From Arthrobacter sp. SLBN-112 (GTDB lineage: Bacteria; Actinomycetota; Actinomycetes; Actinomycetales; Micrococcaceae): a stretch of 64,000 nt of DNA. Positions 36,561-52,690 of this stretch are shown here, piece after piece (the first letter of the stretch is position 1; each line of letters opens with the position of its first letter). The stretch is from NCBI RefSeq assembly GCF_030944625.1, contig NZ_JAUSXY010000001.1, forward strand, positions 2,852,001 through 2,916,000. The letters are read 5' to 3'. The position numbers and the translations under genes were made by a program. The notes under the pieces were generated by a model, which made no database searches, was not told the origin of the DNA, and saw only the letters and a list, made by a program, of their open reading frames with translations.

Positions 36561-36566
36561 TAAGGT
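36561..36566 (+). promoter_or_regulatory. -10 box or ribosome site of metK
   Basis: TAAGGT fits TANNNT and ends 6 bases before the metK GTG, the leaderless spacing; AAGGT inside it could instead be a weak ribosome site. The 76-base gap to coaBC has no -35 box and no room for a SAM riboswitch. Confidence 0.35.
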
Positions 36567-36572
36567 AGTTGA

Positions 36573-37808
36573 GTGACTTTACCGCTGCACCTTCCCCAGC
36601 CCCATGGGGCCACGCCCCCCGCGCTTCGGCTCTTCACGTCCGAGTCGGTCACTGAGGGCCATCCGGACAAGATCTGCGACCAGATCAGCGACGCCATCCT
36701 GGATGCGCTGCTCGCGGCCGACCCCGAGTCGCGCGTGGCCGTGGAAACGATGGCCACCACGGGCCTGGTGCATGTGGCAGGCGAAGTCACCACCGACGCC
36801 TACGTCGAGATCCCGCAGATCGTCCGCGAGACCATCCTGGGAATCGGCTACGACTCCTCGGCCAACGGCTTCGATGGTGCTCGGTGCGGTGTCTCCGTCT
36901 CCATCGGCCAGCAGTCCAATGACATCGCCGGCGGCGTGTTCAACTCACTCGAGGCGCGAGAGGGCCGCCAGGAGGACGACTACGACCTCCAGGGCGCAGG
37001 CGACCAGGGTCTGATGTTCGGCTATGCCAGCGACGAGACCCCGTCCTACATGCCCGTGCCGATCTGGCTCGCGCACCGGCTCTCCGAGCGGCTCACCGAG
37101 GTCCGCAAGACGGGCCAGCTGGCCTACCTCCGCCCTGACGGCAAGACCCAGGTGACCATCGGCTACGACAAAGACGTCCCCGTCTCCGTTGAAACAGTGG
37201 TGATCTCCAGCCAGCACGCCGAGGGCGCCAGCCTGGAGCAGCTCCGGGCCGACCTCGCCGCCGTCGTCATCGAACCCATCCTTGCCGGTGCCAACCTGGA
37301 CCTCTCGCGCACCGCAAACATCCTCAATCCCGCCGGTGAGTTCGTCATCGGCGGACCGGTCGGCGACGCGGGCCTCACCGGCCGCAAAATCATTGTCGAC
37401 ACCTACGGCGGCATGGCCCGCCACGGCGGCGGCGCCTTCTCCGGCAAGGACCCGTCCAAAGTGGACCGCTCCGCTGCGTACGCCATGCGCTGGGTGGCCA
37501 AGAACGTGGTGGCCGCAGGACTGGCCAAGCGTGCCGAGATCCAGATCGCCTATGCGATCGGCCAGGCCCGGCCCGTAGGAACGTACGTTGAGACGTTCGG
37601 CACCGAGACCGTTGACCCGGCAGGGATCAGCGCCGCCATCGCCGAAATCTTCGACCTGCGCCCGCGCGCCATCATTGACGCCCTGGACCTGAAGCGGCCC
37701 ATCTACGCCAAGACCGCCGCACACGGGCACTTTGGCCGCGACGATCCCGACTTCACGTGGGAACGCCTGGACCGGGTGGACGACCTGAAGGCGTTCTTCA
37801 ACGCCTGA
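36573..37808 (+). CDS. metK: S-adenosylmethionine synthase
   Basis: Makes SAM from methionine and ATP. The 411-residue protein has the three-repeat fold with [18 protein letters not shown] near residue 21, [12 protein letters not shown], and the P-loop-like [19 protein letters not shown]. The GTG start adds about 18 residues before the conserved part, which is normal for actinobacterial MetK. It lies between coaBC and priA in the usual order. Confidence 0.97.
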
Positions 37809-46729: not shown

Positions 46730-48244
46730 ATGAACCAGTACGTAATCGCCATCGACCAGGGCACCACCAGCACCCGCGCCATCATCTTCGACCACAGCGG
46801 CGCCATTGTCTCCTCCGGCCAGATGGAACACGAGCAAATCTTCCCGCAGGCCGGCTGGGTGGAGCACGACGCCACGGAAATCTGGAACAACACCCGTGAG
46901 GTCATTGGTTCCGCCCTCTCCAAGGCGAACCTGACGCGGCACGATATTGCCGCCGTCGGCATCACCAACCAGCGCGAAACTGCTGTGGTGTGGGACAAGA
47001 CCACCGGCAAGCCGGTCTACAACGCGATCGTGTGGCAGGACACCCGCACACAGGACATCGTTGATGAACTGTCCAAGGACGGCGGCGGGGACCGCTTCAA
47101 GCAAAAGGTGGGGCTGCCACTGGCAACCTACTTCTCCGGTACCAAGATCAAATGGATCCTGGACAACGTCGACGGCGCCCGTGAAAAGGCTGAAGCCGGG
47201 GATCTGGCCTTCGGCAACACCGACGCCTGGGTCCTGTGGAACCTGACGGGCGGCGTGGACGGCGGTGTCCACGTCACGGACGTCACCAACGCATCCCGCA
47301 CACTGTTCATGGACCTCGAAACCCTGCAATGGGACGACGAAATCCTGGGCATCTTCGGCGTGCCGCGCAGCATGATGCCGGAGATCAAGTCCTCGTCCGA
47401 GGTTTACGGCACCGTCCACAGCTCGCAGCTGCTGCGGGAAACGCCGGTGGCGGGCATCCTTGGTGACCAGCAGGCCGCCACGTTCGGCCAGGTCGCCTTC
47501 GACGCGGGCGAAGCCAAGAACACCTACGGCACGGGCTGCTTCCTGATCTTCAATACGGGCGAGGAAATCGTCCACTCGAAGAACGGGCTGCTCACCACCG
47601 TGGGCTATAAGCTGGGCGACGCCAAGCCGCACTACGCCCTGGAAGGGTCCATCGCCGTCACCGGCTCACTCGTCCAGTGGCTGCGTGACAACCTGGGCAT
47701 GATCAGCAGCGCCCCCGAGGTGGAGACCCTGGCCGCCGCGGTGAAGGACAACGGCGGCGTCTACATCGTGCCTGCGTTCTCCGGACTCTTCGCTCCGTAC
47801 TGGCGCTCGGACGCCCGCGGCGCGATCGTCGGCCTGACCCGCTTCGTCAACAAGAACCACATTGCCCGGGCGGCCCTGGAAGCCACCGCGTTCCAGACCC
47901 GCGAGGTGCTTGACGCCGTCAACGCGGACTCCGGCGTCCCGCTGAGTGAGCTGAAGGTCGACGGCGGCATGGTTGCCAACGACGCCCTCATGCAGTTCCA
48001 GGCAGACATTCTGGGCGTCCCGGTAATCCGGCCCAAGGTCGTGGAAACGACGGCGCTGGGCGCCGCGTACGCGGCAGGCCTTGCCGTTGGCTTCTGGAAG
48101 GACCTCGGCGAGTGCTCGGCCAACTGGTCAGAGGACAAGCGCTGGGAACCGCAGATGGAGCAGGCCGAGCAGGACCGCCAGCTGCGCCTCTGGAAGAAGG
48201 CCGTCACCAAGTCCATGGACTGGGTTGACGAGGACGTGAGGTAG
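46730..48244 (+). CDS. glpK: Glycerol kinase
   Basis: Phosphorylates glycerol to glycerol 3-phosphate, trapping it in the cell. The 504-residue FGGY kinase has the N-terminal phosphate loop [18 protein letters not shown], the glycerol site around [10 protein letters not shown] and the C-terminal signature [23 protein letters not shown] 46730 follows AAGGAC. It is 40 bases after glpF and ends the operon before a strong hairpin. Confidence 0.97.
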
Positions 48245-48356: not shown

Positions 48357-49883
48357 TCAGGATGCGGTGCGTGGCGGCAAGTCCTCTGTGGCCGGCCCCT
48401 GGATGACCTTGCCCTCCACATCGAACCGGGAGCCGTGGCAGGGACAATCCCAGGTGCGGTCGCGCCGGTTGAATCCGACGGTGCAGCCGAGGTGCGTGCA
48501 GACGGCAGACACGGCGTGGATCTCGCCGGCGTCGTCTCTGAAGCAGGCCGTGCTGCCTCCCTCGGTGTCAACCACCATGCCGTCGCCGGATGCCAACTCC
48601 GCAATTCGCATCCGGGAGGCGCCCGGCGATACTGCATCTTTGGGCCGTGCCGGTCCAGTCCCTCCTGCTTCCCGGGTCCCGGGTGCTAATGCCGCGCGGT
48701 TGCTGTCGAACAGGGAAGCCCACTTATTCGGCGTCCCGTTGAGGAGGTCCGCCACAATCAGGGCGGCGGCGGTGCCGTTGGTCAGGCCCCACTTGCGCAG
48801 GCCGGTAATGACGAAGGCATGCCGGCTGTCTGCGTTCAAGGGCCCCACGTAGGGCAGCCCGTCCTTGGGTATGGCGTCCTGGGTGGACCAGCGGTACGCC
48901 ACGGCCGCAGCCCCGAAACGGCTGTGCGCATAGCCGGCGAGCGCTGCATAGCGCGGCGCCGGATCCACCTGTTCTTCGGTGGGGTGTCCCTCACCTCCGG
49001 TCAGCAGGTACGTCACCCCGCCAAGCCCCACCGTCAACAGGGAGCGCATAGGCTCGCCGGCACTGATAAAGGTGGCGTCCAGGGGAGGGCCTGCCACCGG
49101 CGCTGCCACAATATATGAACGGTGCGGCCGGCACAGCGCGGCGAACCGGCCGTGGTCGCCGAAAGGGACATTGGTCGCCACAATGGCATCGCTGGCCAGC
49201 ACTGTTCCGTGACTTGCAGCCACGGCCACAGTCGTGCGCTCGCGCAGTCCCAGTACGCGCGTCCCTTCAAAAACGAAGCTGCCTCCTCCGTCCACTGCAG
49301 CTGCCAGGCCTTGGAGGTACTGCACGGCATGCATCTGGGCCTGACCCTCAAACCGGACCGCGCCGGCTGCCCGGAACGGAAGGGGAACGTCGGCCGTGAA
49401 AGTGGCCGGAAGGCCCAGGCTGGCGGCCAAGGCGGCTTCTTCCCGTACGGCGGGGAGGGTCCGGTCGTCTTCTGCGAACGTATAGTTCTGTACTCGGCGG
49501 AACCCACAAGCGATGTTCTCCTGCGCCACCAGGTCTGCGATGTGCTCGACGGCCGCTTGGTTGGCCAGCCCATAGATCCTGGCGGCAGCTTTGCCGTGAC
49601 TGCGCTCAAGGGCCGTATAGGCAAGGCGGTGCAGGGAAGTCACTTTCCCGGTGGTGTGGCCGCTGACGCCCGTTCCGATCCTGCCCGCCTCAAGGACAGC
49701 CACGGTCCGGCCAGAACGCTTGAGGGCCAGCGCAGCGGTGAGACCGGCGATACCGCCTCCGATCACCGCCGTATCAACGTCAAGTGATCCGCTCAGCTCC
49801 GGGTAGGCCGTGGTCCCCGCGGATGCCAGCCAAAGGGAGAGCGGTTCCCCTTCGGCGAAAGTACCGGTTTCTGGATCTGGCAT
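48357..49883 (-). CDS. FAD-dependent oxidoreductase with C-terminal Rieske domain
   Basis: A 508-residue fusion: an N-terminal DAO-type FAD oxidoreductase (dinucleotide motif VIGGGIAGLTAALALKRSGR near residue 38, GTGVSGHTTGKVTSLH) and a C-terminal Rieske [2Fe-2S] domain with both cluster motifs, CTHLGC and CPCHGS, about residues 455-490. The fusion type is widespread in soil actinobacteria; the substrate is unknown and may be an amine or amino acid. Start: ATG 49883 after GGAGG; an ATG 18 bases upstream is possible. It converges on glpK. Confidence 0.9.
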   Translation of the reverse strand: MPDPETGTFAEGEPLSLWLASAGTTAYPELSGSLDVDTAVIGGGIAGLTAALALKRSGRTVAVLEAGRIGTGVSGHTTGKVTSLHRLAYTALERSHGKAAARIYGLANQAAVEHIADLVAQENIACGFRRVQNYTFAEDDRTLPAVREEAALAASLGLPATFTADVPLPFRAAGAVRFEGQAQMHAVQYLQGLAAAVDGGGSFVFEGTRVLGLRERTTVAVAASHGTVLASDAIVATNVPFGDHGRFAALCRPHRSYIVAAPVAGPPLDATFISAGEPMRSLLTVGLGGVTYLLTGGEGHPTEEQVDPAPRYAALAGYAHSRFGAAAVAYRWSTQDAIPKDGLPYVGPLNADSRHAFVITGLRKWGLTNGTAAALIVADLLNGTPNKWASLFDSNRAALAPGTREAGGTGPARPKDAVSPGASRMRIAELASGDGMVVDTEGGSTACFRDDAGEIHAVSAVCTHLGCTVGFNRRDRTWDCPCHGSRFDVEGKVIQGPATEDLPPRTAS

Positions 49884-49982: not shown

Positions 49983-49988
49983 TAAAGT
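49983..49988 (+). promoter_or_regulatory. -10 box of the leuS leader transcript
   Basis: TAAAGT fits TANNNT and ends 6 bases before the ATG of the leader peptide, so the transcript would be leaderless. The -35 region is not recognisable. Confidence 0.6.
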
Positions 49989-49994
49989 AGATCC

Positions 49995-50021
49995 ATGCGT
50001 GCGATCCTTCTGCTTAGTTAG
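49995..50021 (+). CDS. Leucine-rich leader peptide of the leuS attenuator (MRAILLLS)
   Basis: An 8-codon open frame, ATG CGT GCG ATC CTT CTG CTT AGT TAG, directly follows a -10 box at leaderless spacing. It holds an Ile codon and three consecutive Leu codons, two of them CTT, which is rare in this GC-rich genome and so sensitive to charged tRNA(Leu). It is followed at once by a hairpin and then a terminator, and leuS is the next gene. This is the layout of ribosome-mediated attenuation, as known for amino-acid operons. Too short for standard gene finders. Confidence 0.75.
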   Translation: MRAILLLS

Positions 50022-50080
50022 CCGCCGGCTGTCCCAGACGTGACAGCTGAGCGGCAGCCCCTCCATGGTGAGGGGCTTTT
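50021..50080 (+). terminator. leuS attenuator: pause hairpin and terminator
   Basis: Hairpin 1: GCTGTC (50028-50033) with GACAGC (50042-50047), extended outward by GCCGC (50021-50025) with GCGGC (50051-50055). Terminator: AGCCCCTC (50056-50063) with GAGGGGCT (50070-50077), then TTT. An alternative pairing, GGCTG (50027-50031) with CAGCC (50055-50059), would break the terminator. A ribosome stalled on the Leu codons would cover GCCGC and favour it, allowing readthrough into leuS. Confidence 0.7.
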
Positions 50081-50170
50081 GTGTGTCCGGGGCATGCCGC
50101 CGGGCCGTCAGCAGGAGGATCAGGCCGTTATGGCAGCACCGATGCCGTAACAGAACAGAAAAGGGCAGCA

Positions 50171-52690
50171 GTGGGCGTTCAGCCGGAGACAGAGACCGGA
50201 ACAACAGTATCGGCAGAGCCTGAAGAGGGCACCTACAGTTTCACCGCCATGGAGGCCAAATGGCCCCAGGTGTGGGAAGACCTCAAGGTCTTCACCCCGG
50301 TGGACGACGGGTCCCGGGAACGCCGCTACGTGCTGGACATGTTCCCGTACCCGTCCGGCGACCTGCACATGGGACACGCCGAGGCGTTCGCCATGGGCGA
50401 CGTCGTGGCCCGGTACCTCCGCCAGAAGGGCTACGACGTCCTGCACCCGATCGGGTGGGACTCCTTTGGCCTGCCCGCGGAAAACGCCGCCATCAAGCGC
50501 AACGCCCACCCCAGTGAGTGGACCTACGCCAACATTGACACCCAGGCAGCCTCGTTCAAGCGGTACGCGATCTCCGCTGACTGGTCCCGGCGCCTGCACA
50601 CGTCCGACCCCGAGTACTACCGGTGGACGCAGTGGCTGTTCAAGCGCTTCTACGAGCGCGGCCTTGCCTACCGGAAAGACTCCCCGGTCAACTGGTGCCC
50701 CAAGGACCAGACCGTCCTGGCCAACGAGCAGGTGGTCAACGGCGCCTGCGAGCGCTGCGGTACCACGGTCACCAAGAAGTCCCTGAACCAGTGGTACTTC
50801 AAGATCACCGACTATGCAGACCGGCTGCTGGACGACATGGACGAGCTCCGCGGCCACTGGCCTGAGCGCGTGCTGGCCATGCAGAAGAACTGGATCGGTC
50901 GGTCCGAGGGCGCCCACGTCAACTTCGTCATCGAGGCCGACGGCGGCAAGCCCGCCAAGGACGTCACGGTCTTCACCACCCGCCCGGACACCCTGTACGG
51001 GGCAACCTTCTTCGTGGTGGCCGCTGACGCGCCACTCGCCGTCGAACTCGTCACGGAAGAGCACGCCGCCGCCCTGGACGAGTACCGCGAGAAGGTCAAG
51101 GCCCTCTCTGAGATCGAACGGCAGTCCACGGAACGGGAGAAGACCGGCGTCTTCACCGGCCGGTACGCCATCAACCCGCTCAACGGGGAAAAGCTGCCCG
51201 TCTGGGCCGCCGACTACGTCCTGGCCGACTACGGCACGGGCGCCATCATGGCCGTGCCCGCCCACGACCAGCGCGACCTGGACTTTGCCAAGACCTTCGA
51301 CCTGCCCGTCCGCGCCGTCCTGGACACCGGCGAAGAGGACCCCGCCGTCTCCGGCACCGCCACAGCGGGGGAGGGCACCCTGATCAACTCCGGTGAGCTG
51401 GACGGGCTGGCCAAGGCTGAGGCCATCCCGGCCGCGATCAGGATCCTCGAAGAGCAGGGCACCGGCGAGAAGTTCGTGAACTTCCGGCTGCGCGACTGGC
51501 TGCTGAGCCGCCAGCGGTTCTGGGGCACGCCGATCCCCATCATCCACTGCCCGTCCTGCGGGGAAGTTCCTGTCCCGGACGAGCAGTTGCCGGTGACGCT
51601 GCCGTCGGACCTCCGCGGCGAGGACCTGGCCCCGAAGGGCACGTCGCCCCTGGCCGCCGTCGAAGCATGGGTCAACGTCGAGTGCCCCTCCTGCCACGGC
51701 CCGGCCAAGCGCGATACGGACACCATGGATACGTTCGTTGACTCGTCCTGGTACTTCCTGCGGTTCGTCTCGCCGCAGTACACCGAAGGTCCCTTCGACC
51801 CGCAGAAGATCAACGACTGGATGCCCGTCGGCCAGTACGTCGGCGGCGTGGAGCACGCCATCCTCCACCTGCTGTACGCCCGCTTCTTCACCAAGGTCAT
51901 CCACGACCTGGGCATGATCGACGCCGACGAACCGTTCAGTGCCCTCCTCAACCAGGGGCAGGTGCTCAACGGCGGCAAGGCCATGAGCAAGTCACTGGGC
52001 AACGGCGTTGACCTCGGTGAGCAGCTGGACAAGTTCGGCGTGGACGCGGTCCGGCTGACCATGGTCTTCGCCTCCCCGCCGGAGGACGACGTTGACTGGG
52101 CCGACGTCTCCCCGTCGGGCTCTGCCAAGTTCCTGGCCCGCGCCTGGCGCCTGGCCCAGGACGTCACCAGCGCGCCCGGCGTGGACGCCACCACGGGAGA
52201 CCGTGCCCTGCGTTCGGTAACGCACCGCACCATCGCCGACGCCGCCGAGCTGCTGGACGCCAACAAGTTCAACGTTGTGGTGGCCAAACTGATGGAACTG
52301 GTCAATGCCACCCGCAAAGCGATCGACTCCGGCGCCGGAGCAGCTGACCCCGCCGTCCGCGAGGCCACCGAGGCTGTGGCCGTGATCCTCAGCCTGTTCG
52401 CGCCGTACACGGCCGAGGACATGTGGAACCTGCTGGGCCACCCGGCATCAGTAGCGAACGCCGGCTGGCCGGCACACGATCCTGCCCTCCTGGTCCAGGA
52501 CACTGTCACTGCCGTTGTCCAGGTGCAGGGCAAGGTGCGGGACCGGCTGGAGGTGTCTCCGGATGTTTCCGAGGACCAGCTGCGCGAGCTGGCTCTGGCG
52601 TCCGTGAATGTCCAGCGTGCCCTTGACGGCCGGGGCATCCGAACAGTCATCGTCCGTGCGCCTAAGCTGGTCAACATCGTTCCGGCCTAA
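50171..52690 (+). CDS. leuS: Leucine--tRNA ligase
   Basis: Charges tRNA(Leu). The 839-residue class I enzyme has the HIGH-equivalent [11 protein letters not shown] (about residues 60-70), the KMSKS signature [10 protein letters not shown] (about 603-612), the editing CP1 domain between them ([20 protein letters not shown], Thr-rich loop) and the C-terminal anticodon domain. The GTG at 50171 follows AAAAGGG; in-frame codons upstream to 50081 overlap the leader region and are rejected. Expression is likely controlled by the attenuator upstream. Confidence 0.97.

Follow-up and report, generated by a model that had tools for sequence, protein, structure and literature searches.

Does the leucyl-tRNA synthetase gene (leuS) of Arthrobacter sp. 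SLBN-112 respond to a shortage of charged leucine tRNA through a leader peptide of only eight codons, and if so, how would a stalled ribosome keep the terminator in front of the gene from acting? The question is raised by the region upstream of leuS, which the sequence-only reading had interpreted as a leucine attenuator with a leaderless leader peptide. The genome is a single contig of 4,386,623 bases. The window, by which we mean the whole stretch of 64,000 bases that was analysed, covers positions 2852001-2916000 of it, and the coordinates below are those of the window. The features needed here are as follows.

49983..49988, plus strand: -10 box TAAAGT of the leader promoter, read from the sequence
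49995..50021, plus strand: leader ORF MRAILLLS with its stop codon, predicted to be leaderless, the RNA 5' end being placed at or near 49995 (from the sequence, relatives and the S. lividans homologue)
50007..50015, plus strand: control codons CTT CTG CTT (Leu5-Leu7), the fixed one being Leu7 (50013-50015), from codon counts in relatives
50021..50055, plus strand: hairpin A, sensor and candidate antiterminator, from folding, pinning and covariation
50056..50077, plus strand: terminator hairpin B, AGCCCCTC/GAGGGGCT, directly 3' of hairpin A, from a terminator scan, folding and covariation
50077..50086, plus strand: U-rich tract TTTTGTGTGT, read from the sequence and similar in relatives
50171..52690, plus strand: leuS, leucyl-tRNA synthetase, with a match to TIGR00396

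Direct reading and folding bear out every coordinate of the layout as first described, from the -10 box through the ATG, the ORF, the hairpin and the terminator to leuS. The leader codons are ATG CGT GCG ATC CTT CTG CTT AGT TAG, specifying an 8-codon peptide, and a spacer of six bases (AGATCC) separates the -10 box from the leader ATG at 49995. A simple scan of the leader region for consensus sigma-70 promoters found no -35 box. Folding gives hairpin A arms at 50021-50033 and 50042-50055 with a single bulged A at 50050; its first pair is formed by C50055 and G50021, the latter being the last base of the TAG. The arms of hairpin B are 50056-50063 and 50070-50077. The leader RNA has a folding z score of -2.27, equal stability being reached in 4 of 200 shuffles, and the terminator scan returns one terminator-like site (50056-50077), where shuffled sequences would give 0.4. 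With up to one mismatch allowed, the 4.39-Mb genome contains the 16-mer GGGGCTTTTGTGTGTC a single time, and a search of the window against Rfam 15 at gathering thresholds gave 0 matches, to leader families such as the T-box or to any other. The start of leuS is probably the in-frame GTG at 50171, although the frame is open already from 50081. Among the named matches listed, the nearest leuS locus is that of Pseudarthrobacter enclensis (96%). The minus strand carries at 48357-49883 a gene for an oxidoreductase-like protein that has a Rieske-type stretch at its C terminus, between glpK (46730-48244) and leuS; in Yaniella (L092, L095), the end of a glpK-like gene appears by eye to lie directly before leuS.

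Short ORFs followed by hairpins are easy to find by eye, and the arrangement could be due to chance, or B could be the terminator of a neighbouring gene. Conservation refutes these readings, and we attach practically no probability to them. We assembled 218 leuS upstream regions, consisting of 30 loci from relatives, the best 80 of at least 577, 28 new loci and 80 stretches; the loci come from 59 relatives, 80 named contigs and 246 genomes of the class, in addition to the stretches. Some species are represented twice (e.g. L012 and L032), and L080 has just 9 nt upstream. A composite rule, namely a leader ORF with a Leu codon 5-7 nt before a hairpin that ends beside a terminator, recognises 123 of the 218 real regions but only 2 of 436 in which the bases were shuffled in blocks of 20 nt, and the helices covary. 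The gene upstream of the window element is on the other strand and directed away from B, which speaks against a neighbour's terminator. In one further genus, the composite is present in all 20 of 20 leuS loci, with the peptides MRAVRLLLSEPR, MRAVRLLLSGPR or MRAVRLLLTEPR. We take this genus to be Streptomyces because its peptide MRAVRLLLSEPR is identical to the published LeuL2 of S. lividans. There are 143 positives; dropping two doubtful ones (L068 and L126) leaves 141, of which 134 are unique elements. The sequence-only reading had asked for an alignment of relatives and named missing conservation of the Leu codons or of the terminator as the result that would speak against it. In the aligned relatives, both are conserved well past the genus, and both helices covary.

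The composite test failed in 95 of the 218 regions, and the rule misses some leaders that are found by eye or by script (L089, L090, L093, L099 and L198). The same rule detects no leader in L076, L077, L079, L081, L083-L085, L088, L092, L095, L101 and L103, which lie upstream of leuS in Kocuria, Micrococcus, Yaniella, Auritidibacter and Nesterenkonia. This result suggests that the switch was lost within or near Micrococcaceae. A covariance model, R1, was built from 34 elements, none of them from the Streptomyces-type genus. At an E value no higher than 0.01, it finds matches in 135 of the 296 genomes of the class, some with a second match, a count that includes all matches whether or not they lie at leuS. 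In the Arthrobacter genome itself, the leuS element is the sole strong match (E 3e-18; next 0.27), and a weak one lies at G000:C1:2691716 (E 1.67). In the class search R1 also matches the Streptomyces-type element (e.g. in G072, E 1.3e-12), the geometry of which is alike too. Judged by sequence comparison, the two elements are homologous, the genus name of the second being taken from its peptide. Another weak R1 match within the window, at 36561-36639 (E 0.042), was considered as an attenuator and rejected, as it looks like a leaderless metK start. Here TAAGGT is followed after six bases by the GTG of a metK-like frame (36561-37808; S-adenosylmethionine synthetase by reading), and this gene is probably transcribed as a leaderless mRNA.

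The spacing of the leader promoter is similarly regular. Upstream of the 175 in-frame ATG or GTG starts in the 134 unique elements, we found 151 TAnnnT boxes within 0-20 nt; the spacing is 6 nt for 121 of them and 7 nt for 12, and the remaining 18 are scattered. Thus, 133 of 134 unique elements have a TAnnnT box 6 or 7 nt before an in-frame start, and the 6-nt spacing is as expected of a leaderless start. The leuS leader is therefore probably leaderless, as had been proposed; to this -10-to-start spacing can be added the homologous S. lividans leader, which is reported to be leaderless (PMC8079986).

The control codons are conserved in kind as well as in place. By recount, CTT encodes the final Leu of the run in 120 of the 134 unique elements (109 by the rule, which took the penultimate Leu as the last in 20 of 134), versus 2.9% CTT among the Leu codons of 128 leuS genes. 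The presence of a Leu is required by the composite rule and is thus partly circular, while the choice of the codon is not. In the window, CTT accounts for 5 of the 107 Leu codons of leuS and glpK, so that the two CTT codons of the leader were rightly called rare. The run is LLL in 116 of 134 elements; in the others, Gln, Val, Arg, Pro, Glu, Ser and Asp are among the residues that precede the last Leu. Codons 5 and 6 may encode residues other than Leu in relatives. In Glutamicibacter-type loci, which do not pass the rule, the sole Leu is a CTA at codon 7. These leaders (L068-L073) have 8 codons with few Leu, for example MNSQHNLA and MHPKRNLV, each followed by a stop. The frame of L070 is MKPQ and a stop, without Leu, and in L071 both hairpins look merged by eye.

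Between the control codon and the terminator lies hairpin A. When leader and terminator were searched for without requiring A, they were found in 144 of 238 regions, 137 of these being unique. In 127 of the 137 elements, the strongest intervening stem starts 4-7 nt past the last Leu and ends at most 3 nt from B, versus 105 of 2740 shuffled spacers. The window sequence is among the 10 exceptions, since its bulge lets an inner stem score higher; the basal stem GCCGC/GCGGC is present in its folded hairpin A. The helices were further examined in an alignment, A2, of 34 chosen sequences, with L175 left out. Double changes are seen at 6 of 8 pairs of helix A and 2 of 7 pairs of helix B. The covariation score of 0.236, computed on a structure read from the same 34 sequences, was reached in 0 of 500 shuffles and falls to 0.015-0.073 when partners are slid; the number of further pair types was matched by 22 of 500 shuffles. 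RNAalifold recovers both helices from the alignment. Among 70 distinct pairs of A arms, a mean of 7.60 of 9 positions are paired, the maximum in 500 random re-pairings being 6.07. The first pair of A, between the last base of the stop codon and the base that follows GCGG, is G-C in 31, A-U in 2 and G-U in 1 of the 34 sequences. One of the A-U cases is L056, where the stop codon is TAA and the partner is U.

This geometry would place hairpin A just outside a ribosome waiting for charged tRNA(Leu). If Leu7 occupies the A site, the codon in the P site is 50010-50012, and the first paired base of A, 50021, is at +12. When all 137 elements are set with their last Leu codon in the A site, +12 is where the strongest stem begins in 113 of them, and in 16 it begins at +11. 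The ribosome unwinds RNA at position +11, so that an empty A site at Leu7 should allow hairpin A to be complete. Once the ribosome has the stop codon in its A site, it encloses the first six bases of A. These six form the best conserved pairs, and the distal part of the hairpin is variable. In terms of sequence geometry, the placement of the codons fits the classical expectation that stalling frees a regulatory hairpin and completion of the peptide masks it.

Taken with the conserved anatomy, Leu codons, terminator and covariation, which support the initial proposal of a Leu-codon attenuator of leuS, this leads us to regard the element, with good confidence, as a ribosome-mediated transcription attenuator in which hairpin A, read out by a leaderless 8-codon leader peptide, opposes hairpin B. 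We infer the leaderless 5' end, the stalling, the termination and the direction of control, which would combine as follows. The RNA would begin with the A of the leader ATG, where the ribosome would load. With ample charged tRNA(Leu), the ribosome would reach the TAG and hold open the conserved base of A, B would form, and transcription would end before leuS. Under a shortage of charged tRNA(Leu), the ribosome would instead halt with its A site on a Leu codon, chiefly the rare CTT of codon 7, and A would fold fully from +12 relative to the P site. The complete A, abutting B, would then make B fail to stop RNA polymerase, and leuS would be made.

Leader pause hairpins have their base unwound by the passing ribosome, and A could be one of these. 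It precedes a terminator, and a ribosome passing codon 7 would unwind its base, so that A might mainly pause the polymerase until the ribosome catches up; the switch would then lie in the kinetics of coupling, with no antiterminator state. This reading, which we regard as unlikely, leaves unexplained why A should end so close to B. The gap between the strongest upstream stem and B is 0-2 nt in 131 of the 137 elements, although the distance from the Leu codon to B ranges from 26 to 80 nt. Both the Leu-to-A and the A-to-B distance are fixed, as the preferred reading of A as a hairpin opposing B would have it.

How A defeats B is the least certain step of the attenuator, because the two hairpins adjoin but share no conserved bases, which is the unusual trait of leuS. 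A classical attenuator would use an antiterminator whose pairing takes up nucleotides from the 5' arm of B, either the pairing of 50027-50031 with 50055-50059 proposed in the sequence-only reading or a short overlap at the boundary. The proposed pairing does exist in the letters of the window, but its exact register occurs in 1 of 134 elements, namely this one. As a conserved feature it was rejected: over 20 registers, 5 of 5 pairs are possible in 2 elements and 4 of 5 in 66. A two-base boundary overlap (columns 38-91 and 39-90 of A2) did no better than shuffles among the 34 sequences, with 60.3% of cells paired versus 60.7% in shuffles and no double change. The upstream bases of this overlap would be inside the ribosome when Leu7 is in the A site. 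A further candidate, pairing of the Leu-codon segment with the 3' arm of A (GCUUAGUU with AGCUGAGC), fits this element by eye and, likewise by eye, not the distant relatives viewed.

Folding with a stalled ribosome gives a more graded picture. It was done under equilibrium conditions, without polymerase, pausing or coaxial stacking, on 115 unique of 121 elements before the further genus was added and later on all 134; in both runs, elements in which the penultimate Leu had been chosen were modelled one codon early. With full B, the mean probability of the B pairs is at least 0.5 in 115 of 115 elements at the Leu stall and in 114 of 115 once the ribosome has reached the stop codon. A stall two codons earlier still leaves a median of 0.979, never below 0.5 in 134 of 134. 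When B is incomplete, its 5' arm pairs upstream (probability >0.5) in 43 of 115 elements at the stop versus 1 of 115 at the Leu stall, a modelled contrast that by itself would predict the opposite polarity and is unexplained by the favoured model. Upstream pairing (>0.5) of the first three bases of B is seen in 19 of 134 elements at the last-codon stall, 66 of 134 two codons earlier and 46 of 134 without ribosome; for the whole 5' arm of B, the counts are 1, 11 and 9 of 134. At the last-codon stall, the first three bases are also paired upstream in 4 of 22 ilvB and 4 of 8 cimA leaders. An outward extension of A into B by 2 bp is possible in 91 of 134 elements, and with an earlier stall a partial A/B overlap is possible in about half. 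These numbers leave some room for the classical scheme, and in C. glutamicum ilvBNC the adjacent hairpins overlap by three bases, GCC (PMC11857589). Nevertheless, folding, register and boundary tests detected no conserved antiterminator sharing bases with the 5' arm of B among the 134 elements, and we consider such a pairing rather improbable. We regard hairpin A itself as the probable antiterminator, which might act by abutment; that it acts against B is suggested by the physiology and by analogy with related ilvB systems.

The same layout recurs at other genes of branched-chain amino acid metabolism. We viewed 34 further places, mostly R1 matches, where the downstream frames by reading are ilvB in 18 cases (plus 2 probable), cimA in 6, leuS in 5 and leuA-like in 1, with 2 unassigned. 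Some are backed by gene-search matches (for example, ilvB in L258, L259, L264, L265 and L272; cimA in L271), and the rest are named by reading. The leuA-like gene (L283), a weak match of R1, has the leader MHSLLLLRSRGEA followed by a stop. In a direct gene search, we took the best 30 ilvB loci of 97 genomes and the best 30 cimA loci of 79 genomes with matches, using a looser rule (-10 box [TGC]AnnnT and a stem-start window of 2-8, versus 4-7 for leuS). Leaders with runs of I, L or V were found in 22 of 30 ilvB and 8 of 30 cimA loci; by this looser rule, 8 of 30 ilvB and 22 of 30 cimA loci have no leader. A pinned stem lies between run and terminator in 18 of the 22 ilvB leaders (shuffled, 30 of 440) and in 8 of the 8 cimA leaders (shuffled, 9 of 160). 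The ilvB runs are ILVL and similar, and those of cimA are Ile-rich (IIIV, VIII, LIII, LLII, VVII and VII). The codons thus follow the gene while the layout stays constant, which is the best comparative evidence that the control codons are the sensor. The ilvB gene of Arthrobacter sp. SLBN-112 itself (L275, G000:C1:2561351-2563368), identified by a gene family match, has the branched-chain leader MTFVTGIVVVLTKRVAH, ending in a stop, near 195-248 of this locus, and a hairpin that adjoins the terminator. Ile-rich leaders with the same layout precede cimA in several actinomycetes (L257, L268, L271, L274, L286 and 8 of the 30 loci L321-L350). We recognised no published account of Ile-rich cimA leaders in the open-licence literature searched, and the present data point to such leaders upstream of some cimA genes.

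These parallels bear on the converse role of A. Being adjacent and thermodynamically compatible, A and B could stack, A aiding B so that a stall favours termination, or A could be a mere spacer, with leuS not regulated by leucine here. A ribosome at the stop codon would free the 3' arm of A, which pairs weakly with B. Stacking, however, would lower leuS expression just when charged tRNA(Leu) is short, ilvB and cimA use the same layout with matching codons, and an actinobacterial ilvB leader is reported to be induced on inhibition of the pathway (PMC13236596). We consider both variants very improbable and return to A as an antiterminator. In that role it would need no pairing with B. We favour a steric or geometric conflict at the RNA exit of the polymerase. 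Lying between the stalled ribosome and B, hairpin A could leave no room for the basal pairs of B in the exit channel, and the two-codon step of the ribosome from control codon to stop would open just the conserved base of A and restore termination. We tentatively suggest, as a possibility well short of a probable one, that antitermination without bases shared by antiterminator and terminator is a design common to actinobacterial leuS, ilvB and cimA. If abutment is true, attenuation can work without competing base pairs, and attenuators without a visible antiterminator would be recognisable by spacing alone. Whether or not abutment is the mechanism, a very short leader peptide of 8 codons is here tied to a geometry that is fully specified to the nucleotide. 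No paper on antitermination by hairpin abutment was recognised in the open-licence literature, searched mostly by titles and the beginnings of abstracts.

Comparison with known systems shows where the element is familiar and where it is not. To call the design little described was an overstatement, as a leader of this kind has already been published for leuS of Streptomyces. In S. lividans TK24, leuL2-leuS has the leader MRAVRLLLSEPR, which is reported to be leaderless, contains three Leu codons and precedes a hairpin and a U stretch (PMC8079986); the gene is the same, and the Leu-A-B geometry is found in the 20 of 20 loci with this or similar peptides. The difference is that the Arthrobacter leader has 8 codons and a TAG whose G begins hairpin A, whereas in the Streptomyces type the ORF enters A and ends with TGA. 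Classical attenuators of leuS, likewise with a leader peptide, a hairpin called antiterminator and a terminator upstream of the gene, were predicted for S. coelicolor and S. avermitilis in 2005 by Seliverstov et al. (PMC1262725). The text calls the attenuation classical and is silent on hairpins sharing bases, and its genome list, by our reading of the species names, is without Micrococcaceae. Work cited there counts against the codon-sensing model: changes of leader codons in S. coelicolor ilvB were without effect, and mutations in the leuA leader were inconsistent with classical attenuation (PMC1262725). No paper on leuS leaders outside Streptomyces was recognised among the titles and abstract beginnings that made up most of the open-licence literature searched.

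The ilvB systems are closest in mechanism. In the 'fast' attenuator of C. glutamicum ilvBNC, the leader start lies beside the transcript start and the antiterminator adjoins the terminator, as is predicted for the leuS element; its control codons are Leu and Val, and its hairpins share the GCC trinucleotide, whereas the leuS family has no conserved shared bases (PMC11857589). The adjacent antiterminator was proposed there from mutations, the effect of which mostly tracks terminator stability. Mutations in the antiterminator and not in the terminator had moderate to weak effects, which counts against the antiterminator role preferred here (PMC11857589). An uORF motif is also reported upstream of Corynebacterium ilvB (PMC10272879). 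In M. tuberculosis ilvB1NC, where changing LVVI to AAAA abolishes induction of ilvB1 by pathway inhibition, stalling at branched-chain codons is proposed to allow the antiterminator and a ribosome at the stop codon to mask it, as we suggest for leuS. The gene and leader are different, and two mutually exclusive structures are described (PMC13236596). In summary, leaderless leuL-leuS with a terminator is known already from Streptomyces, and what is added here is a shorter, TAG-ended form in Micrococcaceae, which on comparative grounds would extend the leuS regulation of Streptomyces to this family and to several other actinobacterial groups.
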